The notes under the pieces: generated by a model
Databases searched by the model: none
Told to the model about the DNA's origin: nothing
Seen by the model: the letters and a program-made list of their open reading frames with translations, nothing else
From: Xenophilus aerolatus
Lineage (GTDB): Bacteria; Pseudomonadota; Gammaproteobacteria; Burkholderiales; Burkholderiaceae_C
Assembly: GCA_029968055.1 (NCBI GenBank)
Contig: JASCNX010000005.1
Coordinates: 310,001 to 374,000 of the forward strand
DNA length: 64,000 bases
Reading direction: 5' to 3'
Part shown: in pieces, positions 5,540 to 51,559 of the stretch
Numbering within the stretch: the first letter of the stretch is position 1
Layout: each line of letters starts with the position of its first letter
Program-made: the position numbers and the translations under genes

Positions 5540-5988
5540 GGCGAAAGCTCTCCGGGTTGGGCAGGACCTGGGACAGCGGGCACGCACCGCGCGGCGCCGC
5601 TGGCGGACGCGTGGGATGCGCGTCCAAGAGCAATTTCCGGGCGACCCTGGGGCCGCTGAACGCTTCTACTCCGTGCACGGATCGTGCAGCTTCCGTGCCA
5701 GTGCTGGCAGGCCAGGACCCGCGCGGTGGGCACCGGCCTTGTGCCCGCTTGCGCCGCCGCGGTGCGCTGCGTTCCATGCCGGGGCGGATGCCCCTGCGGC
5801 GCCATCGGGCTTCGCGAAAAGCTGGCGTCGGGTGCGGCGACAAGGTGAAAATGCACGCAAGAGTAGAAGCGTTCAACCGCTGCATGCATCCCTGACGCGC
5901 GCTACCGCGCGATCTTCGCGGTGCATCAATGGCCGGGAATTGCTCTTGAGGTCTTTCTTCCCCACATGACTTTCAGGAGCAACCCCAC
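5540..5988. promoter_or_regulatory. divergent regulatory region with inverted duplication
   Basis: This 449-bp gene-free spacer separates the leftward binding-protein operon from the rightward oxygenase B. Two boxes occur once for each gene, in opposite orientation and in the same order relative to each gene. Box A is TGAACGCTTCTACTC at 5657-5671 and its exact reverse complement at 5861-5875, with a nearby CGTGCA/TGCACG at 5672-5677 and 5852-5857. Box B is CAAGAGCAATTTCCGG at 5625-5640 and CCGGGAATTGCTCTTG at 5933-5948 (15 of 16 matching as reverse complements). Both promoters therefore probably answer to the same regulator(s). I cannot identify convincing -35/-10 pairs. Confidence 0.65.
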
Positions 5989-42437: not shown

Positions 42438-45332
42438 TCAGGCTGCTTCGGGCAGGGCCGCCGGCACCGCCCGCACCATGCGCTGCAGCTCGGGCACGCA
42501 GGAGCCGCAGTTGGTGCCGCACTGGAGCGTGCCCTGCAGCTGCGCCAGCCGCGCCGCGTCGCTGCCGGCGCAGCGTGCCAGCGTGCCGGCGATGGCGGTC
42601 TCGCTCACGCCGAAGCAGCTGCACACCGTCCTGCCGCGCGCCGCGACCGCCACCGGCGCTGTCGGTTCGAAGGACAGCAGCTGGCGGCCGAAGTCCTGTG
42701 CAGGCAGTTGGTCCTGCAGGAGGGCCTTGATCCAGGCCTCGGCGCGCGTGTCGCCGGCCAGCAGCAGTCCCACCACATGGGCGGCGTCGCCGGCGGCCGC
42801 CCCGCGCTGCAGCCGCACGGCACGGCGCTGCCGGCGCGCGGCATCGGCATAGCGCAGGGTGTCGGCGCCGCCCAGGCCCAGCAGGCGTTCGATCTCGGCG
42901 AGCACGGCATCGGGCGGCGCCTCGTGCGCGGCCACACGCAACAGCACGCCGGTGGGCTGCGCCGCGCCGTCCTTCAGCGCACCCGGCGCGCCGAAGGACA
43001 CGCAGCTGAAGAAAGGCAGCGATTCGACCTGTGCACGCAGTGCCACGCGCGCCGCCAGCGCCTGCCCGGGCGGCAGCCAGGCCATGCCCAGCATCGTCCA
43101 GGGCAGCTCGGCGCGCGCGATGCGCACGGCCGTGTGCTTGAGTTCCGGCTGCTTGGAGACGGGGCAGTGCTCGGGCGTGGTGAGGCCGTTGACGCCGGCC
43201 ATCGGCCGGCCGTCGCTGCCACGTCCGCCGATGAACTCGGGGCCCCAGTGCATCGCCATGAAGGCCTGCGACGGGGCCAGCTCGGCGCTGGCCGCCACCG
43301 GAACGACCAGGCGGCCGTGGCGCGAGCTGACCTCGATCAGTTGGCCCTCGGCATAACCGCGGCGCGCCAGGTCCTGGGGGTGCATCTGCAGCACCGGCTC
43401 GGGCACGTGGCCGAACAGGCGCCCCAACGTGCCGGTGCGGCTCATGCCGTGCCACTGGTCGCGCAGCCGGCCGGTGTTGAGCGAGAAGGGATAGTTCTCC
43501 TCGCGCGGCTCGGCGACCGGCCGGTAAGGGGTGGCAACGAAGCGGGCGCGGCCATCCGGGGTGGGGAACACACCGTCCTCGTAGAGGCGCGCCCGGCCCA
43601 ACGGGCGTGCGGCGGCCGGCGACGCGGCCGCGTCGCCCTCCGCCGGGCCGCCGCAGATCGTGTCCGCAGGACACGGCCACTGCTGCGGCGCGGCCTCGAG
43701 CAGGCTGTAGCTCAGGCCGGTGATGTCCAGGTCGCGCCCGCGGGTCGATTCACGGTGCTCGTTCCAGACCTGCTCCGGCCGCTCGTAGGGAAAGAGCGTG
43801 CCGGTGCCCAGCGCCCGCCGTGGCAGCCGCGCCTCGAGCCGCCGCGCGAACTCCACGCCGATGGTCCAGTCGTGCCGTGCCGTCCCGGCCGCCGGCACGG
43901 CCGCGCGCACGCGCGAGATGCGGCGCTCGCTGTTGGTCACGGTGCCTTCCTTCTCGCCCCAGGTGGTCGCGGGCAGCAGCAGGTCGGCAAAGTCGCAGGT
44001 GGCCGTGGTGGCGAAGGCCTCCTGCACGACCACGAACTCGGCGCGTTCGAGCGCACGGCGCACCGTCGCCTGGTCGGGCATCGACTGCGCGGGGTTGGTG
44101 CAGGCGATCCACAGCGCCTTGATCTCGCCGTCTGCGGCGGCGCTGAACATCTCGATCGCGCTCCTGCCGGGCACGGCAGGGATGTCCTGCACGCCCCACA
44201 TCGCCGCCACTTCGGCGCGGTGTGCGGCGTTCGCCATGTCCCGGTGCGCGGGCAGCAGGTTCGACAGGCCGCCCACTTCGCGCCCGCCCATCGCGTTGGG
44301 CTGGCCGGTGAGCGAGAAGGGCCCGGCACCGGGGCGGCCGATCTGCCCGGTCGCCAAGTGCAGGTTGATGAGCGCCGCGTTCTTCGCCGTGCCGCTGGAG
44401 GACTGGTTCAGCCCCATGCAGTACAGGCTCAGCGTGGCGGGCGAGGAGGCGAAGAGGCGCGTGGCGTGCACCAGGTCGTCCACCGTGATCCCGCAGGTCT
44501 GCGCGACCTTCTCGGGCGAGCAGTGCGCGACGAGCGCGGCCAGCGCGTCGAAGCCGCTGGTGTGGGCGGCGATGTAGCCCGGGTTCGTCCAGCCCTCGCG
44601 CAGCATCAGGTGCAGCATGCCGTGAAAGAGCATCACGTCGGTGCCCGGCAGCAGCGGCAGGTGCAGGTCGGCGATCTCGCAGGTGTCGGTGCGGCGCGGG
44701 TCGGCCACCACGATCCGCATCGCCGGGTTGGCGCGCTTGGCGTCCTCGATGCGGCGGAAGAGGATGGGATGCGCCCAGGCCGTGTTGCTGCCGACGATGA
44801 ACAGGCAGTCGGCATGCTTCACGTCGTCGTAGCAGGCGGGAGGCGCGTCGGCGCCCAGCGTCTGCTTGTAGCCCGCCACCGCGCTGCTCATGCACAGCCG
44901 CGAGTTGGTGTCGAGGTTGTTGGTGCCGATGAGGCCCTTGGCCAGCTTGTTGAAGACGTAGTAGTCCTCGGTCAGCAGTTGGCCCGAGAGGTAGAAGCCC
45001 ACGGCGTTGGGGCCGTGCGCGCGGATGATGCCGGCGAAGCGGTCCGCGGCGAGGTCCAGCGCCTCGTCCCAGCCGAAGGGGATGGGCGCGGTGCCGCGCG
45101 CGCTGCGCTGCATCGGCTGCAGCAGGCGCACTTGGCGCATCACCTCGGCCGAGGCCGTGAGGTGCAGCGTCGAGCCCTTGGTGCACAGCCGTCCGAAGTT
45201 GGCCGGGTGCTCCGGGTCGCCGCGCACGCCGGTGATCTGGCCGTCGCGGGATTCGATCAGCACACCGCATCCGACGCCGCAGTAGGGGCAGGTCGATCGG
45301 GTCTCATTGAGCGGGCGGGTCATGGTCGCCAT
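42438..45332 (-). CDS. nasA: assimilatory nitrate reductase catalytic subunit with C-terminal BFD-type [2Fe-2S] domain
   Basis: A 964-residue cytosolic molybdoenzyme that reduces nitrate to nitrite. The [4Fe-4S] ligands are C15, C18, C22 and C50 (CPYCGVGC ... GRLC), followed by the bis-MGD folds and the molybdopterin dinucleotide C-terminal domain (PFSLNTGRLRDQWHGMSRTG). A BFD-like domain at the end (VCSCFGVSETAI ... CGTNCGSC) adds a [2Fe-2S] centre, as in Klebsiella-type NasA. The ATG at 45332 overlaps the reductase stop (TGATG), so translation is coupled. Electrons probably come from the flavoprotein encoded upstream. Confidence 0.95.
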   Translation of the reverse strand: MATMTRPLNETRSTCPYCGVGCGVLIESRDGQITGVRGDPEHPANFGRLCTKGSTLHLTASAEVMRQVRLLQPMQRSARGTAPIPFGWDEALDLAADRFAGIIRAHGPNAVGFYLSGQLLTEDYYVFNKLAKGLIGTNNLDTNSRLCMSSAVAGYKQTLGADAPPACYDDVKHADCLFIVGSNTAWAHPILFRRIEDAKRANPAMRIVVADPRRTDTCEIADLHLPLLPGTDVMLFHGMLHLMLREGWTNPGYIAAHTSGFDALAALVAHCSPEKVAQTCGITVDDLVHATRLFASSPATLSLYCMGLNQSSSGTAKNAALINLHLATGQIGRPGAGPFSLTGQPNAMGGREVGGLSNLLPAHRDMANAAHRAEVAAMWGVQDIPAVPGRSAIEMFSAAADGEIKALWIACTNPAQSMPDQATVRRALERAEFVVVQEAFATTATCDFADLLLPATTWGEKEGTVTNSERRISRVRAAVPAAGTARHDWTIGVEFARRLEARLPRRALGTGTLFPYERPEQVWNEHRESTRGRDLDITGLSYSLLEAAPQQWPCPADTICGGPAEGDAAASPAAARPLGRARLYEDGVFPTPDGRARFVATPYRPVAEPREENYPFSLNTGRLRDQWHGMSRTGTLGRLFGHVPEPVLQMHPQDLARRGYAEGQLIEVSSRHGRLVVPVAASAELAPSQAFMAMHWGPEFIGGRGSDGRPMAGVNGLTTPEHCPVSKQPELKHTAVRIARAELPWTMLGMAWLPPGQALAARVALRAQVESLPFFSCVSFGAPGALKDGAAQPTGVLLRVAAHEAPPDAVLAEIERLLGLGGADTLRYADAARRQRRAVRLQRGAAAGDAAHVVGLLLAGDTRAEAWIKALLQDQLPAQDFGRQLLSFEPTAPVAVAARGRTVCSCFGVSETAIAGTLARCAGSDAARLAQLQGTLQCGTNCGSCVPELQRMVRAVPAALPEAA

Positions 45333-46648
45333 CAGGTCTCGCATTCGGCCGCCAGCGCCCGCGGCGCTTGCGCGGGCACCGGACCGGACACCGGCGTGAC
45401 GGTCCTCGGGGCGGGCTGGATCGGCTGCGCCGGAGGGCCGAACATCAGTTGGTCGCGCAGGTCCGCCACCGGGCGGCGTTCGCGCATCAGGTCCAGGTAC
45501 CAGCTGCCTTCGCCCGCATCGCCGTAGAGGCACACGCCCACCAGACGGTCGTCCTCGAGCACCAGCTTGCGGTAGATGCCGCCGGCCGGGTCGCGCAGCA
45601 CGATCGTGTCGGTCCCTTCGCCGCCCATGAAGTCGCCGGCCGAAAAGAGCTCGATGCCGGTCACCTTCAGCCGCAGCGGCGTGAGCGAGCCGCCGTAGCG
45701 GCCGATGCCCATCTGCGCCAGGTGGGTGGCCGCGACGCGGCCCTGCTCGTAGAGCGGTGCCACCAGGCCGTAGGCGATGCCGCGGTGCTGCGCGCATTCG
45801 CCCACGGCATAGATGCGCGGGTCGGTCACGGTCTGCAGCGTGTCGTCGACCACGATGCCGCGCTCGCAGTGCAGGCGCATCTGCTGCGCCAGGGCCACGT
45901 TGGGTCGGATGCCCACGGCCATCACCACCAGGTCCCCAGCGACTTCGCTGCCATCGCCGAAGCACACGGCCTGCACGCGGCCGGTGCCGTCGTCCTGCAA
46001 GGAGCCGGTGCGCGCGCGCAGGCGGAAGGCGATGCCGCGCTGTTCCAGCGCGCGCTGCAGCAGCGCGCCGGCTTCGGCATCGAGCTGCTTGTCCATGGGC
46101 CACGCGTTGCTGTGCACCACCGTCACCTGCATGCCGCGCTGCGCCAGCCCGTTGGCCGCCTCGAGCCCGAGCACGCCGCCGCCGATCACCACCGCGCGGC
46201 GGTGCGTGCGGGCGGCCGCGATCATGGCCTCGGTGTCGGCGATGTCGCGATAGGCGACCACGCCCTGCAGGCCGGCCCCCGGCACGGGCAGCATGAAGGG
46301 GTTGGAGCCGGTCGCCAGCAGCAGGCGGTCGTAGGCGGCCTCGATGACGCGGCCGTCGTCGGCCTCGGCCCGCACCGTGCGGCGGGCGCGGTCCACCGCG
46401 CTCACGCGGCAGCCCGTGTGCAGCGTGATGCCGTGCTGCGCGTACCAGTCACGGGGATGCAGGACGATCTGCTCGATGGTCTTCTCGCCCGCCAGCACCG
46501 GCGACAGCATGATGCGGTTGTAGTTGGGATGCGGCTCGGCACCGAAGACGGTGATGTCGTACAGCCCGGGCGCGAGCCGCAGCAGTTCCTCGACCGTGCG
46601 CATGCCGGCCATGCCGTTGCCGACTACGACGAGCTTCATCTTGCGCAT
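45332..46648 (-). CDS. NAD(P)H-dependent FAD oxidoreductase, nitrate-reductase electron donor
   Basis: A 438-residue pyridine-nucleotide-disulphide-type flavoprotein similar to the N-terminal half of NirB. FAD site KLVVVGNGMAGMRTVEELL; NYNRIMLSPVLAGEK is a NirB/NasB signature; NAD site AVVIGGGVLGLEAANGLA; second FAD motif IYAVGECAQHRG. It lacks the NirB [2Fe-2S], sirohaem and [4Fe-4S] domains, so it is not a nitrite reductase. It lies between the ABC genes and nasA, overlapping nasA by 3 bp, and fits an NasC/NasB-like role of passing electrons from NAD(P)H to NasA. Confidence 0.9.
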   Translation of the reverse strand: MRKMKLVVVGNGMAGMRTVEELLRLAPGLYDITVFGAEPHPNYNRIMLSPVLAGEKTIEQIVLHPRDWYAQHGITLHTGCRVSAVDRARRTVRAEADDGRVIEAAYDRLLLATGSNPFMLPVPGAGLQGVVAYRDIADTEAMIAAARTHRRAVVIGGGVLGLEAANGLAQRGMQVTVVHSNAWPMDKQLDAEAGALLQRALEQRGIAFRLRARTGSLQDDGTGRVQAVCFGDGSEVAGDLVVMAVGIRPNVALAQQMRLHCERGIVVDDTLQTVTDPRIYAVGECAQHRGIAYGLVAPLYEQGRVAATHLAQMGIGRYGGSLTPLRLKVTGIELFSAGDFMGGEGTDTIVLRDPAGGIYRKLVLEDDRLVGVCLYGDAGEGSWYLDLMRERRPVADLRDQLMFGPPAQPIQPAPRTVTPVSGPVPAQAPRALAAECET

Positions 46649-46673: not shown

Positions 46674-47480
46674 TCAGGCGGCCTGCGTCTCGACGTGCGC
46701 CTGGCGCGTGTACAGGAAGTCGATCACGGCCTTGCGGTAGTGCACGTAGTCGCGGTCCTCGGCCAGTTCCACGCGGTTGCGCGGGCGCGGCAGGTCCACG
46801 TGCAGCACCTCGCCGATGGTGGCGGCCGGGCCGTTGGTCATCATGACGATCTTGTCCGAGAGCAGCACTGCCTCGTCCACGTCGTGCGTGACCATCACCA
46901 CCGTGCTGTGCGTCTTCTGCACGATGGCGAGCAATTCGTCCTGCAGCTTGGCGCGCGTGAGCGCATCCAGGGCGCCAAAGGGCTCGTCCATCAGCAGCAC
47001 CTTGGGCTCCATGGCCAGCGCACGGGCGATGCCCACGCGCTGCTTCATGCCACCGGAGATCTCGCCGGGGCGCTTGTGCGTCGCATGCGTGAGGCCCACC
47101 AGCGCCAGCGCCTCGTCGGTGCGCTGCTTGAGCTGCGGCTTGCCCTCGTTGCGACCGAAGACGCGCTCGACGCCCAGGTAGATGTTTTCGAAGCAGGTGA
47201 GCCAGGGCAGCAGCGAATGGTTCTGGAACACCACCGCGCGCTCCGGGCCGGGACCCGAGATCTCCTTGTTGGCGCACAGCAGCACGCCCTGTGTGGGCCG
47301 GGTCAGGCCGGCGATCAGGTTCAGCAGCGTGCTCTTGCCGCAGCCCGAGTGGCCGATCAGCGCGACGAACTCGCCCTTGGCCACGTCGAGCTCGATGTCG
47401 CGCAGCGCGACGAAGCGGCCCTTGGGGGTCTTGAACGCCTGCTCGACGTTCTGGATCTGGATGTACTTGGAATCGGTCAT
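46674..47480 (-). CDS. nrtC: nitrate ABC transporter ATP-binding protein
   Basis: A 268-residue ATPase: Walker A GHSGCGKST, signature ISGGMKQR, Walker B VLLMDEPFGALD and His-loop VMVTHDVDEAVLLSD. It lacks the NrtA-like C-terminal domain of cyanobacterial NrtC, so it is an NrtD/NasD-type single-domain ATPase. The ATG at 47480 has AGGAG upstream. Hairpin copy 3 separates it from nrtB. It powers nitrate/nitrite import. Confidence 0.93.
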   Translation of the reverse strand: MTDSKYIQIQNVEQAFKTPKGRFVALRDIELDVAKGEFVALIGHSGCGKSTLLNLIAGLTRPTQGVLLCANKEISGPGPERAVVFQNHSLLPWLTCFENIYLGVERVFGRNEGKPQLKQRTDEALALVGLTHATHKRPGEISGGMKQRVGIARALAMEPKVLLMDEPFGALDALTRAKLQDELLAIVQKTHSTVVMVTHDVDEAVLLSDKIVMMTNGPAATIGEVLHVDLPRPRNRVELAEDRDYVHYRKAVIDFLYTRQAHVETQAA

Positions 47481-47501
47481 GGGAATGCTCCTCAGAGATA
47501 C

Positions 47502-47619
47502 GGATACCGGACGCAGAGGACGCAAAGGTTTCGCAAAGGGCGCAGAAAAATCAGAAAAGATGTCTTGGACTCTTTTGCGACTTCTGCGAAACCTTTGCGA
47601 CTTCTGCGTCCGGAAGTCC
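47502..47619. repeat. hairpin element, copy 3
   Basis: Left arm about 47502-47548, right arm about 47573-47619. The arms share the CGGACGCAG...GCAAAGGTTTCGCA core but are less perfect than in copies 1 and 2. On the minus strand it begins 5 bp after the nrtB stop codon and ends shortly before the nrtC ribosome site. Confidence 0.8.
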
Positions 47620-47624
47620 GAATT

Positions 47625-48557
47625 TCAGGACTTCACTTCCTCGAACGTGAAAGCCGATGCGAGCTTGATCAGCGCGTACTCGAGCACGAGCCCGACGATG
47701 CCGATGACGAAGATCGCGATGATGATGTTCTTGACGTTGAGGTTGTTCCACTCGTCCCACACCCAGAAGCCGATGCCCACGCCGCCGGTCAGCATCTCGG
47801 CAGCGACGATCACCAGCCAGGCGGTGCCGACGGCCAGGCGCACGCCGGTGAGCATGTAGGGCAGCACGGCGGGGAAGAGGATCTTGGTGACGATCTTCCA
47901 TTCGGAGAGGTTGAGCACGCGCGCCACGTTCATGTAGTCGCTGGGCACGCGCTGCACGCCGACCGCGGTGTTGATGATCATGGGCCAGATCGAGCAGATG
48001 AAGATGGTCCAGATGGCGGCCGGGTTGGCGCCCTTGAAGACCAGCAGACCGATCGGCAGCCACGCCAGCGGCGAGACCGGGCGCAGCAGGCTGATGAGCG
48101 GGTTGAACATGCGCGACAGGAACGAGAAGCGCCCGATGGCGAAGCCCGCCGGGATGCCCACCAGCGCCGCCAGCCCGAAGCCCAGTGCCACGCGCTTGAG
48201 CGAAGAGAGCACGTTCCAGCCAACGCCCTGGTCGTTCGGGCCGTTGCTGTAGAACGGGTCGCTGAACACTGTGACCGCCTGCTTCCAGGTCTCGGCCGGG
48301 CCGGGGAAGGAGCCGCCGCTCTGCAGCGACACGGCCTCCCAGATCAGCAGCAGCAGGCCGAAGCCCATGGCCGGCGGCAGCACGCGCAGCCAGAGGCCGC
48401 TGAAGTCCCGGGCGGCCTTCTGCGCTGGCGCGGCGGCGGCCTCCTGGGGTGGGGTGTCGATGGGCACGGCCTTGAGCAAAGGCTTGGCCGGGGCGGCGGC
48501 AGGCATGTCGGTGCGGGTGTCCGCATCGAGCGGGAGGTGGAAAACGGCGGCGACCAT
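47625..48557 (-). CDS. nrtB: nitrate ABC transporter permease
   Basis: A 310-residue permease with about six membrane segments after a ~50-residue cytosolic N-terminus (Pro/Ala rich). The EAA loop is DYMNVARVLNLSEWKIVTKILFPAVLPY, and the segment SPLAWLPIGLLVFKGANPAAIWTIFICSIWP is the NrtB signature. It comes 39 bp after nrtA. The ATG at 48557 is used; an internal Met at residue 18 is an alternative. Confidence 0.93.
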   Translation of the reverse strand: MVAAVFHLPLDADTRTDMPAAAPAKPLLKAVPIDTPPQEAAAAPAQKAARDFSGLWLRVLPPAMGFGLLLLIWEAVSLQSGGSFPGPAETWKQAVTVFSDPFYSNGPNDQGVGWNVLSSLKRVALGFGLAALVGIPAGFAIGRFSFLSRMFNPLISLLRPVSPLAWLPIGLLVFKGANPAAIWTIFICSIWPMIINTAVGVQRVPSDYMNVARVLNLSEWKIVTKILFPAVLPYMLTGVRLAVGTAWLVIVAAEMLTGGVGIGFWVWDEWNNLNVKNIIIAIFVIGIVGLVLEYALIKLASAFTFEEVKS

Positions 48558-48596: not shown

Positions 48597-49847
48597 TCAG
48601 CCCATCTGGACCTTGAAGGACTCGGCGTACTTCTTCGGGTCCTTGCCGTCCCAGACCACGCCGTCCATCAGCTTGCTGCTGCGCATCGGGCTGGCGGGCA
48701 CGGGGGTCTTGGTGGCGGCGGCGGCCTGCTTGTACAGGTCGATTCGGTTGATCTCGGTGGCGACCTTCAGGTAGTCGGGATGCTCCTTGAGCAGGCCCCA
48801 GCGCTTGTGCTGCGTGAGGAACCACATGCCGTCCGAGAGGTACGGGAAGGTCACCGCGCCGTCGGCGTAGAACTTCATGTGGTTGGGGTCGTCCCAGTTC
48901 TTGCCCAGGCCGTTGGTGTAGCGGCCCAGGATGCGCTGGTTGATCGCGTCGACGCTGGTGTTGACGTAGCTCTTGTCGGCGATGGTCTCGGCCATCTTGT
49001 TCTTGTTCTGCAGGCCGGCATCGATCCACTTGCTCGCCTCGAGGATCGCGGCCGTCACGGCGCGCGCCGTGTTGGGGTACTTCTTCGTGAACTCGGCCGT
49101 GGTGCCCAGCACCTTCTCGGGGTGGTCCTTCCAGATGTCCTGCGTGGTGATGGCGGTGATGCCGATGCCGTCCATGATGGCGCGCTGGCCCCAGGGCTCG
49201 CCCACGCAGAAGCCGTCCATGTTGCCCACGCGCATGTTGGCCACCATCTGCGGCGGCGGCACCACGATGGACTTGGCGTCCTTCATCGGGTTGATGCCGC
49301 TGGCCGCCAGCCAGTAGTAGAGCCACATCGCGTGCGTGCCGGTGGGGAAGGTTTGCGCGAAGGTGTATTCGCGCTTCTCGGCGGCCATCAGCTTGGCGAG
49401 CGAGGGGCCGTCCACCGCGCCCTTGTCGGCCAGCTTCTTTGACAGCGTGATGGCCTGGCCGTTGTTGTTGAGGGTCATGAGCACAGCCATGTCCTTCTTG
49501 GGGCCGCCGATGCCGACGTGCACCCCGTACACCAGGCCGTAGAGCACGTGGGCGAAGTCCAGCTCGCCGTTGACCAGCTTGTCGCGCACGCCGGCCCAGC
49601 TCGCCTCCTTGCTGGGCACGATTTTCACGCCGTACTTCTTGTCGATGCCCAGCACCGAGGCCATGACGACGCTGGCGCAGTCGGTCAGGGGGATGAAGCC
49701 GATCTTCACCTCCTCCTTCTCGGGCTTGTCGGAGCCCTGCGCCCAGACGGCGGCGCGCAGGGCAGGGTCGATGCCGACGGCGCCGGCGGCCGCGGCCTTG
49801 AGCACGGTGCGGCGGCTGAGCTTGCTGGGGATGAGGGATTCGGTCAT
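48597..49847 (-). CDS. nrtA: nitrate ABC transporter substrate-binding protein
   Basis: A 416-residue periplasmic nitrate-binding protein. The N-terminus LSRRTVLKAAAAGAVG is a twin-arginine signal. Family blocks are IGFIPLTDCASVVMASVLGIDKKYG, PPQMVANMRVGNMDGFCVGEPWGQRAI and DKSYVNTSVDAINQRILGRY. The ATG at 49847 is chosen over an open frame running to 50030 because the leader there contains the terminator and ANTAR hairpins. It is the first structural gene of the nas operon. Confidence 0.95.
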   Translation of the reverse strand: MTESLIPSKLSRRTVLKAAAAGAVGIDPALRAAVWAQGSDKPEKEEVKIGFIPLTDCASVVMASVLGIDKKYGVKIVPSKEASWAGVRDKLVNGELDFAHVLYGLVYGVHVGIGGPKKDMAVLMTLNNNGQAITLSKKLADKGAVDGPSLAKLMAAEKREYTFAQTFPTGTHAMWLYYWLAASGINPMKDAKSIVVPPPQMVANMRVGNMDGFCVGEPWGQRAIMDGIGITAITTQDIWKDHPEKVLGTTAEFTKKYPNTARAVTAAILEASKWIDAGLQNKNKMAETIADKSYVNTSVDAINQRILGRYTNGLGKNWDDPNHMKFYADGAVTFPYLSDGMWFLTQHKRWGLLKEHPDYLKVATEINRIDLYKQAAAATKTPVPASPMRSSKLMDGVVWDGKDPKKYAESFKVQMG

Positions 49848-49895
49848 GGGGCCAACTCCAGTCGAGGAAGGGATGGGCGAAGCGGAAGACGAAAA

Positions 49896-49967
49896 CAAAA
49901 AAGGCGTCCTCAGCACGCAGGGGCCGTCGCATGTCGCGAGCAGCCCTTGCGGGTCGAGGACGCCTTT
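49896..49967 (-). terminator. leader terminator of the nitrate operon (NasR-controlled)
   Basis: On the minus strand AAAGGCGTCCTC (49967-49956) pairs perfectly with GAGGACGCCTTT (49911-49900), followed by a T run to 49897. It lies between the sigma-54 promoter and nrtA, so default transcription would stop before the structural genes. Its 5' arm includes the hexaloop and 3' strand of the second ANTAR hairpin, making the two structures mutually exclusive. Confidence 0.88.
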
Positions 49968-50002
49968 GTCCGGGTCGGTGGGCCGCACCCGCCTTTGGAT
50001 GC
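49958..50002 (-). promoter_or_regulatory. ANTAR dual-hexaloop RNA (NasR target)
   Basis: On the minus strand hairpin P1 (50002-49985) is GCATCC-AAAGGC-GGGTGC and P2 (49971-49958) is GGAC-AAAGGC-GTCC, separated by 13 nt. Both loops are six nt, with A at position 1 and G at position 4, the ANTAR recognition rule, and they are identical. P2 shares its 3' side with the terminator stem. NasR binding would hold P2 and allow read-through. Confidence 0.85.
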
Positions 50003-50041
50003 CGCCTGCCTGGGACCGTCGCCGGTCCATGGGAGTGTTGA

Positions 50042-50058
50042 TTGCAAACGCCGTGCCA
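50042..50058 (-). promoter_or_regulatory. sigma-54 promoter of the nitrate operon
   Basis: The minus strand reads TGGCAC-GGCGT-TTGCAA, a match to all conserved sigma-54 positions with the GG and GC doublets 12 bp apart. Transcription would start near 50032, giving a ~185-nt leader that contains P1, P2 and the terminator. Confidence 0.9.
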
Positions 50059-50078
50059 GGGATCGAAAGCTGCGGTCC

Positions 50079-50101
50079 GCTATGAAATCAATAGCTGCCC
50101 G
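50079..50101. repeat. 23-bp stem-loop repeat, copy 2
   Basis: GCTAT-GAAATCA-ATAGC followed by TGCCCG, the same arms and tail as the copy at 8214-8236. It lies between the NtrC-like sites and the sigma-54 promoter. Confidence 0.6.
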
Positions 50102-50161
50102 CCCACGCAACATGGGCCCTGCAGGCCGATTTCGCTTGAGACGGAGCCGGGCGCACTCGCA

Positions 50162-50195
50162 GCACGCATGTTGTGCGGCGCACCAAATCAGGTGC
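50162..50195. promoter_or_regulatory. tandem NtrC-like enhancer sites
   Basis: GCAC-N7-GTGC at 50162-50176 and GCACC-N6-GGTGC at 50180-50195 resemble the NtrC consensus TGCACC-N5-GGTGCA (the second is 1 bp longer). Their centres fall at about -137 and -156 from the predicted sigma-54 start, the usual enhancer distance. They lie just downstream of the nasR stop codon. Confidence 0.65.
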
Positions 50196-50200
50196 AGGAC

Positions 50201-51559
50201 TCAGTGCCCGGGCAGGAACTCGGCCATCGCGAGCACCGATTCGGCGACCTCCACCAGCCGCCGGTTCTGGTTCATCGCGGTCTGGCGCAGCATCTTGTGC
50301 GCCTCTTCCTCGCTGAGGCGCCGGTGCGCCATCAGCAGGCCCTTGGCGCGCTCGACCACCTTGCGTTCGTTCAGGCTGGCGCGCACCGTGGCCAGCTCGT
50401 CGCTCATCGCCTGCAGGCGGCGCGACTGCTCCTGCACCATGTCGAGCACGGAGCGCTCGAGGTGCCGGCCATAGCGCGAGCCGGCCGTGCCCGAGGCATC
50501 GGCGAGTTCGTCGCCGCCCGGCACCGGCGCGGCGTCGAAGAAGCCCGCCGGCATCGGCGCGTCGGCTCCCGTGCCCTGGGCCTGCACCGTGGCCAGCAGC
50601 GCCTCGTATTGGGCGAGCTCGGCGCGTGCCTGCGCCGTCTTGCGCTCGCACAGGCCGCGCAGTTCGTCGGCCAGGCGGTCCTCCACCCGTCGCATGGCGT
50701 CGATGCGGCGCGTGCAGCAGTCGAACCACACGGGCCCGAGGTCGGGCACGAGCGTGCCGCCGGGCGCCGCGCAGCCGATGCGCCGCAGGCGCTCCAGCTC
50801 GGCCGTGCCGGCCCCGTCCTGCAACTGCTGCCAAAGCGCGCGCAGTGCCTCGTCGGCGAATTCGGTGAAGACCTCGAAGCAGCGCTCCTGCGATTCGATC
50901 AGGTGCAGCCACTGCTGGCGCTGGGCGTCGTCGTTGCGACCGCGCGTGAAGGCGGCGGCGCCGAAAGCGCGCTCCTGGCCCGCCAGCTCCTTGCCCTGCA
51001 TGAAGTTGAACATCGCGACCAGCCAGCGCGAGATCTGCGGGTCGGTGGCGCCATCGGCGGCCTCGAAGACCAGCGCCAGCAGTCCGGCGATCAGCTTCAC
51101 GAACGCGGCGGTGGCCTCGGCAGGCGGCATCTTCAGGGTCGCGATGCGGGCGCGCAAGGCGGGCAGGCCGTCCAGCCCCGGCAGCACCCACGCCACGCGG
51201 CTGAACAGGCGCGCGCCGTTGCCCAGGTGCTGCGGCTCGTGCTGCAGCGCGTCCAGGGCGCTACGCACCTCCTGTGCGACGGTCTCGCAGGCGGCGATCT
51301 GCTGCAGGCGCTGTTCGGCGAAGCGCGTGCCGCCGGAGCCGATGAAGACATTGGAGATGCCGCGCTCCTTCTGCAGCGCGTGCACCAGCAGGCCGATGGT
51401 GCCGACCAGCGCGCTGGTGCGGCTGAGCTGGTCGAGTTCATCGATCTCGCAACGGCGTGCGGCGACGAGGAAGGTGAGGCCGGAGGTCATGAGGAGGTCG
51501 TGCAGTCGTGGAGCGATCCGCCCGTCGCGCGGCCGCTGGCTGTACCGTGCAAATTCCAT
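50201..51559 (-). CDS. nasR: NasR-type nitrate-responsive antiterminator (NIT + ANTAR)
   Basis: A 452-residue cytosolic regulator. Residues ~40-300 form a NIT nitrate/nitrite-sensing helical domain ([30 protein letters not shown] is its signature start). The C-terminus (~385-445) is an ANTAR RNA-binding domain ([40 protein letters not shown]). It would bind the paired hexaloop hairpins in the nrtA leader and prevent termination when nitrate is present. It is directly upstream of its target on the same strand. The ATG at 51559 lies 40 bp from the divergent tsaD; a Met at residue 24 is an alternative. Confidence 0.93.

Follow-up and report, generated by a model that had tools for sequence, protein, structure and literature searches.

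The question raised by this locus is how transcription of a nitrate transport and assimilation operon beginning with nrtA is controlled from the short region that separates it from nasR, the gene of a nitrate-responsive antiterminator. An earlier note on the same DNA had proposed control at two levels, with low nitrogen governing initiation and nitrate governing read-through. Our analysis of the window (the whole 64,000-nt stretch of Xenophilus aerolatus DNA) and of related genomes indicates that the nrtA leader is very likely a NasR antitermination leader of the nasF type. Its mechanism is very probably NasR-dependent and of an ordinary kind, the principle being already known. The main interest lies in a natural series of rebuilt leaders and in a proposal concerning the Rfam narK RNA.

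Anatomy of the nasR-nrtA region

On the minus strand the elements follow one another in the order nasR stop codon, two NtrC-like sites, sigma-54 box, three hairpins (P0, P1 and P2), terminator, T tract and nrtA, with 44 bp between the T tract and nrtA. The features of the region and of the operon are:

50201-51559, minus strand: nasR, NIT-ANTAR nitrate-responsive antiterminator, 452 aa as an ORF (Pfam, structure match)
50180-50195, minus strand: NtrC-like half sites GCAC-N8-GTGC, one base longer than N7
50162-50176, minus strand: NtrC-like site GCAC-N7-GTGC
50043-50058, minus strand: putative sigma-54 promoter TGGCACGGCGTTTGCA
50013-50028, minus strand: P0, 5' hairpin GGACCG-GCGA-CGGTCC with a GNRA tetraloop, in slot 1 (RNAalifold, covariation)
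49985-50002, minus strand: P1, candidate recruitment hairpin GCATCC-AAAGGC-GGGTGC with hexaloop AAAGGC (covariation)
49958-49971, minus strand: P2, candidate antiterminator hairpin GGAC-AAAGGC-GTCC with hexaloop AAAGGC (conserved downstream of nasR)
49956-49967, minus strand: terminator 5' arm AAAGGCGTCCTC, made of the P2 loop and 3' strand plus TC (sequence, fold)
49900-49911, minus strand: terminator 3' arm GAGGACGCCTTT (sequence, fold)
49892-49899, minus strand: T-rich tract of the terminator TTTGTTTT (sequence)
48597-49847, minus strand: nrtA, nitrate ABC transporter substrate-binding protein, start codon at 49845-49847 (Pfam NMT1_2, 1.7e-101, scored on the longer ORF 48597-50030)
47625-48557, minus strand: nrtB, ABC permease (Pfam BPD_transp_1, 8.3e-23)
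46674-47525, minus strand: nrtD, nitrate ABC transporter ATPase (NCBIfam TIGR01184, 339.1 bits against a cut-off of 291.8)
45332-46648, minus strand: NirB-N-terminal-like FAD/NAD(P)H subunit
42438-45335, start approximate, minus strand: nasA-like assimilatory nitrate reductase with molybdopterin domains and a C-terminal BFD-like domain, within the ORF 42438-46103

The NIT-ANTAR gene does lie immediately upstream of the leader, as had been noted, and it was wrongly called divergent: nasR and nrtA are codirectional. The NasR protein displays the NIT (Pfam, 2.3e-61) and ANTAR (2e-20) domains, matches the Klebsiella oxytoca NasR structure 4AKK (3.5e-53) and is the sole ANTAR match in the whole genome; no NCBIfam model matches it. 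Its start may be later than that of the ORF, since in many relatives the alignment begins near residue 24. Of the nine RNA-contact residues of EutV, placed by eye on an ungapped match (the numbering is offset by two in the chain used for alignment), six are kept, namely R142, K143, E160, M172, N173 and R177; the altered ones are K147 (R), Y164 (H) and R175 (N), one of these changes being conservative. The histidine in place of the stacking residue Tyr164 and the asparagine in place of R175 count against a nasF-type leader here. In one relative (L172, G904:C1:32498-33688) nasR is matched in two same-strand pieces, covering query residues 23-208 and 251-449, which may represent a gap or a frame change.

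Two hairpins with identical AAAGGC hexaloops, and a terminator whose 5' arm is built from the loop and 3' strand of the second, had been reported from the sequence, and both are confirmed here at the stated positions; P0, the third, 5' hairpin of the leader, had been missed. Both hexaloops have A1 and G4 with a C-G closing pair under the loop, and the terminator stem comprises 12 bp. The window was scanned for pairs of C-G-closed A1/G4 hexaloop hairpins with stems of at least 4 bp, separated by 40 nt or less, the second of which overlaps a terminator: this arrangement occurs once, in the nrtA leader, and in none of 200 dinucleotide-shuffled windows. The fold energy of the leader is 5.1 s.d. 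below that of shuffles, none of 200 being as low. Folding, which the earlier note had suggested as a check, yields mutually exclusive states: the predicted energy of the terminator state is -79.8 kcal/mol, versus -64.7 kcal/mol with P1 and P2 forced, and an RNA ending about 30 nt past P2, where the terminator 3' arm is not yet made, is predicted to form P0, P1 and P2 together. By these predictions, therefore, P2 could form first and would then be displaced unless held.

These features closely recall known ANTAR targets. PMC3369931, PMC3369936, PMC7496416 and PMC8934654 describe the dual-hexaloop mechanism, its linker constraint and predicted ANTAR targets 5' of nitrate transporters and, among others, in Burkholderia. 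With the K. oxytoca NasR/nasF system, as presented in PMC7496416 and PMC3369936, the locus shares the NIT-ANTAR protein, the A1/G4 hexaloops, the C-G closing pairs (a feature known from the SELEX results of PMC7496416), the P2/terminator overlap and the nitrate-assimilation operon. It differs from nasF, which was compared by description, in the extra 5' hairpin P0, the nrtABD operon and the position of nasR directly upstream. The EutV/eut leaders of Enterococcus faecalis share the dual-hexaloop antiterminator and the protein the six contact residues assigned by eye (PMC3369931, PMC8934654); in contrast to the NasR of the window, EutV is a two-component REC-ANTAR protein answering to ethanolamine. 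The P1-P2 linkers of eut leaders span 5-12 nt according to PMC3369931, whereas that of the window has 13 nt when P1 is taken as a 6-bp stem, and fewer if the stem extends as predicted. Among the matches listed in the open-licence literature none describes a NasR leader in Variovorax or in front of a Comamonadaceae nrtA, an absence that amounts to weak evidence; relative to those matches, the window offers a fully laid-out candidate nitrate switch in a lineage, the Comamonadaceae, for which none was listed.

Conservation, covariation and the proposed switch

The NasR scan of relatives provided the best 80 of 138 confirmed loci, which together with the window make 81 nasR-downstream regions. The P2 core is found in 79 of these. 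In the two others the contig breaks off early, after 75 nt in L024 and 267 nt in L026, and the latter may genuinely lack the leader. When the genome of the window is searched with a covariance model of the leader, a single place stands above noise (86.7 bits, the next scoring 15.8).

The motif TGGCAC-N5-TTGC is the sigma-54 consensus used for promoter assignment, and nasF of K. oxytoca has an Ntr/sigma-54 promoter. The window combines this motif with an upstream NtrC-type site, and the genome encodes RpoN (1.5e-126) and NtrC (over its cut-off), which points to a promoter of the same type. The near-consensus box reported earlier holds good, a similar box being recognized 5' of P2 in 76 of the 79 regions. 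Of the two NtrC-like sites claimed alongside it, that at 50162-50176 stands: its N7 spacing recurs in 58 of the 79 upstream regions, the site lying in many of them 107-118 bp before the -24 box. The pair at 50180-50195 departs from this spacing by one base, which counts against it, the N8 spacing being found in seven regions; N6 occurs in five and N12 and N14 in 10 each.

For covariation we used 62 distinct leaders of the window's type. In P1 four of seven pairs are changed on both sides, with 92.6% of cells paired, and in P0 two of the four counted pairs, with 92.5% of cells paired; these counts ignore the relatedness of the sequences. RNAalifold drew the P0, P1 and P2 helices unprompted. The covariation score of the whole structure is 0.207, against 0.140 in shuffles and at most 0.130 with slid partners, and for the percentage paired, the cells changed on both sides and this score alike none of 500 shuffles reaches the observed value. 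The number of pairs changed on both sides (6 versus 4.7 in shuffles, equalled or exceeded in 103 of 500) is not distinct from chance, nor is that of further pair types (17 versus 15.6, equalled or exceeded in 119 of 500). The covariance support that had been looked for in close relatives is thus obtained for P1; P2 cannot be assessed in this way because it is invariant in all 62 leaders, and its stem varies with pairing kept only across the order (e.g. CGAC/GTCG, CAAC/GTTG and GAGC/GCTC).

The overlap of P2 with the terminator, whose conservation along with that of the hexaloops the earlier note had asked of related genomes, is kept by a compensatory change outside the P2 stem. Position 3 of the P2 loop is A in 64 regions and C in 15, and the facing base of the terminator 3' arm is T in all 64 of the former and G in 14 of the latter, the exception being L081 (61 and 5 of these were counted by script, the other 13 by eye). 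These observations bear on an alternative in which the terminator is constitutive and merely attenuates read-through from nasR, the pairing of the hexaloops being a by-product. Since nasR lies upstream on the same strand, its transcripts would indeed also meet the terminator; but the loop identity, the C-G closing pairs and the compensatory change between loop position 3 and the arm are all conserved, and ANTAR genes co-occur with matches to the narK RNA in a wider genome set (below). We regard this alternative as scarcely credible.

A NasR switch is accordingly our preferred account of the overlap, and two-level control is supported by the protein domains, the six retained EutV contact residues, the presence of RpoN and NtrC, the conserved promoter and NtrC-type site, the P1 covariation, the P2/terminator overlap and the predicted folds. 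With this anatomy and its conservation established, we infer promoter use, NasR binding and read-through as follows. When nitrogen is limiting, NtrC-P would activate sigma-54-dependent transcription from a start some 12 bp past the TTGC box, and P0, P1 and P2 would form in the first 100 nt or so of the transcript. If nitrate is absent, the 3' arm, once transcribed, would pair with the loop and 3' strand of P2; the resulting terminator would halt transcription about 45 nt short of nrtA. If nitrate or nitrite is present, NasR would sit on the P1 hexaloop and then take P2 as it emerges; the terminator would thereby be blocked and the nrtABD-nas operon transcribed. P0 is likely to be structural and probably does not bind NasR here, because it is capped by a GNRA tetraloop and has no A1/G4 hexaloop.

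Hairpin slots and linkers across the order

To the 81 regions we added 93 further nasR-type regions, chosen among the matches listed in overlapping sets of 399 order, 369 class and 299 family genomes. The resulting 174 regions comprise 110 distinct leaders with P1, P2 and terminator, 14 duplicates and 50 regions in which the strict script made no call. The latter do not enter the linker counts. Among them are regions cut off by a contig end (L024, L026), leaders missed by the pattern and recognized by eye, such as L087 and L090, and NIT-ANTAR genes that show no leader in the 600 nt examined (e.g. L092, L093, L095 and L097).

The position of the recognition loop, measured from the -24 box to the start of the P1 A1/G4 loop, falls into two classes: slot 1, at 34-44 nt in 44 leaders, and slot 2, at 57-68 nt in 54; two fit neither, and 10 of the 110 without a recognized sigma-54 box were left out. 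On a quick, midpoint-rooted NasR tree (152 of 174 rows after thinning of near-copies, with a long-branch warning elsewhere in the tree) a single clade of 58 rows (SH-aLRT 98) holds all 42 slot-2 leaders present, and for the 12 thinned slot-2 leaders the nearest kept copy falls in it. Its members are Xenophilus, Pseudacidovorax and Variovorax, with a few unnamed or Burkholderiales rows. Within this clade slot 1 is occupied by P0, whose loop starts at 33-39 nt; other genera carry an A1/G4 hexaloop in the first slot, where the window has P0. In leaders with 18-30-nt linkers the loop of a middle hairpin starts at a median of 61.5 nt (32 leaders), and that of P1 in the window's clade at a median of 62 nt. 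Hence, the hairpin slots appear to correspond and the recognition loop to have changed slot. Slot 1 is probably the ancestral position because it is spread outside the clade.

Four members of the clade have a called leader outside slot 2. In L034 and L041 P0 is absent and in L035 apparently so, P1 directly following the promoter in all three; in L071 the script assigned the P0 loop as P1. An A1/G4 loop in the position of P0 is seen in four of the 54 slot-2 leaders (L057, L066, L070 and L077), as a relic or intermediate would be; L025 is not counted among them as its loop falls outside P0. It could be argued from these four, together with L071 outside the 54, that P0 is a live third recognition hairpin, making the leader a triple-hairpin target whose first hexaloop is also read by NasR, and in the window P0, with its C-G closing pairs, can also be read as a hexaloop GGCGAC with G4. 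We consider this quite improbable: the P0 loops of the other 50 leaders are not A1/G4, for 25 of the 54 a 4-nt loop, for instance GNRA or TTCG, is the best drawing, L034, L041 and L035 keep P1, P2 and the terminator arm in spite of the lack of P0 (apparent in L035), and Met172 of EutV may exclude tetraloops, as suggested in PMC8934654.

The P1-P2 linkers span 8-133 nt in the 110 distinct leaders, 46 of them being at least 18 nt long. The distant same-order relatives L098, L100 and L101 have linkers of 63, 133 and 49 nt, far above the range reported for eut leaders. Linkers of at least 18 nt fold better than their dinucleotide shuffles (34 cluster representatives, combined p 3e-12, mean z -1.55), and in a Polaromonas-type set of 13 sequences both the first and the middle hairpin show compensatory pairs, the latter being changed on both sides at one of four pairs. 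Such structure argues that intervening hairpins shorten the physical distance. Against it stands the possibility that NasR, unlike EutV, simply has no distance limit and tolerates long linkers as such, which we hold to be a tenable though somewhat doubtful explanation: once folded, the linkers keep an unpaired stretch no shorter than that of shuffles (combined p 0.72), and L141 and L094 have 16-nt linkers without a predicted hairpin. The stricter proposal that spacer hairpins keep the unpaired length constant is not supported by that same shuffle control, and only the above-chance linker structure stands. A single origin of all short linkers was likewise unsupported, with nine changes on the tree and some unrelated short-linker leaders; the claim of an origin is therefore restricted to the slot-2 hexaloop.

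An open question, as posed in PMC8934654, is what makes the presence of two hexaloops, and the spacing between them, important if a single ANTAR dimer can bind just one of them at once. The natural variants bear directly on it: they vary the spacing over this whole range, insert spacer hairpins, move the hexaloop between hairpins and lose P0.

The leader and the Rfam narK RNA

At gathering threshold Rfam recognizes neither the window leader nor any of the loci of 20 relatives. At a loose threshold the leader matches RF03032, the narK RNA, over the full model length with 22.7 bits (gathering score 43.2); the microRNA family RF03671 (26.4 versus 100) and others matched a shorter stretch, scoring the terminator stem alone, and were taken as chance. 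The RF03032 consensus has GGCaCAgcucUUGC at its 5' end and contains GGCaCA...UUGC, a hairpin GGcagCC-AACGGC-GGcugCC and CGAC-AAAGAC-GUCG, the last unmarked as a helix. The window leader shares the promoter-like block, a hairpin with a C-G-closed hexaloop (AACGGC in the model) and the P2-like block; the model differs from it in having a single annotated hairpin, in not marking P2 as a helix and in lacking the terminator.

RF03032 matches 45 of the 399 order genomes at E <=0.001, three of them over the gathering score. The best 30 of the 45 matches (L178-L207), inspected with loose criteria and hexaloop stems of at least 3 bp, all have a P1 A1/G4 hexaloop; P2 is found in 29, both hexaloops in 29, a sigma-54-like box in 25 and an overlapping terminator stem of at least 8 bp in 23. 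The hexaloops and the box partly follow from the model, whereas the terminator and the ANTAR gene constitute independent evidence because they are absent from it. An ANTAR domain is encoded in every one of the 45 matched genomes, compared with 188 in the full set of 399 (Fisher 8e-17, kinship ignored), and the ANTAR gene, taken as one per genome, lies at most 500 bp from the match in 28 of the 45, at most 3 kb in 36 and at most 10 kb in 40. Most ANTAR frames in these genomes have about 200 aa and are NasT-like by length alone. Ten downstream ORFs were classified by eye: most look like nitrate transporter binding proteins, two like MFS transporters and one is NirB-like; the ORF downstream of the match in L202 fits none of these classes.

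RF03032 thus looks like the same kind of element as the NasR leader. Speaking against a simple equation, the search of the 399 order genomes at E <=0.001 yields no match in the genome of the window or in G049, G133, G350 and G377, all of which have NasR genes. The model probably misses the window because it has room for a single hairpin between promoter and P2, where the window has two. On balance, we lean towards the view that narK RNA is not a separate class: its 5' block would be sigma-54 promoter DNA and its 3' block the P2 hexaloop of NasT/NasR ANTAR leaders. As part of the same proposal, the recognition hexaloop would be movable across the order, standing in slot 1 (at about 38 nt, counted from the -24 box) in the majority of the other sampled genera and having moved to slot 2 (about 62 nt), probably once, in the Xenophilus/Variovorax/Pseudacidovorax clade. 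The first hairpin would have been left there as an often tetraloop-capped relic, and intervening hairpins may set the physical P1-P2 distance. RF03032, whose Rfam record in the form examined states no mechanism, would thereby become a testable ANTAR target. The open-licence literature yielded no mention of narK RNA, narK motif or RF03032; this is weak evidence, as the original motif description lies outside that scope.

A further Rfam family shows a similar layout. RF00625, the Pseudomonas sRNA P11, presumably linked to NasT of P. aeruginosa, overlaps a narK RNA match at L180:1488-1597 with 40.2 bits, below its gathering score of 70. Its consensus shows the same kinds of element: a sigma-54-like box in UUGGCAC...CUGC, a hexaloop-like hairpin tipped CAACGauG and GGACAAAGGCGUCC; among the matches listed in the open-licence literature none mentions P11. 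Elsewhere in the window there are two divergent xanthine (NMT1) riboswitch matches over their gathering score of 36, at 5623-5676 on the minus strand (50.6 bits) and 5856-5950 on the plus strand (41.2 bits), spaced about 180 bp apart.
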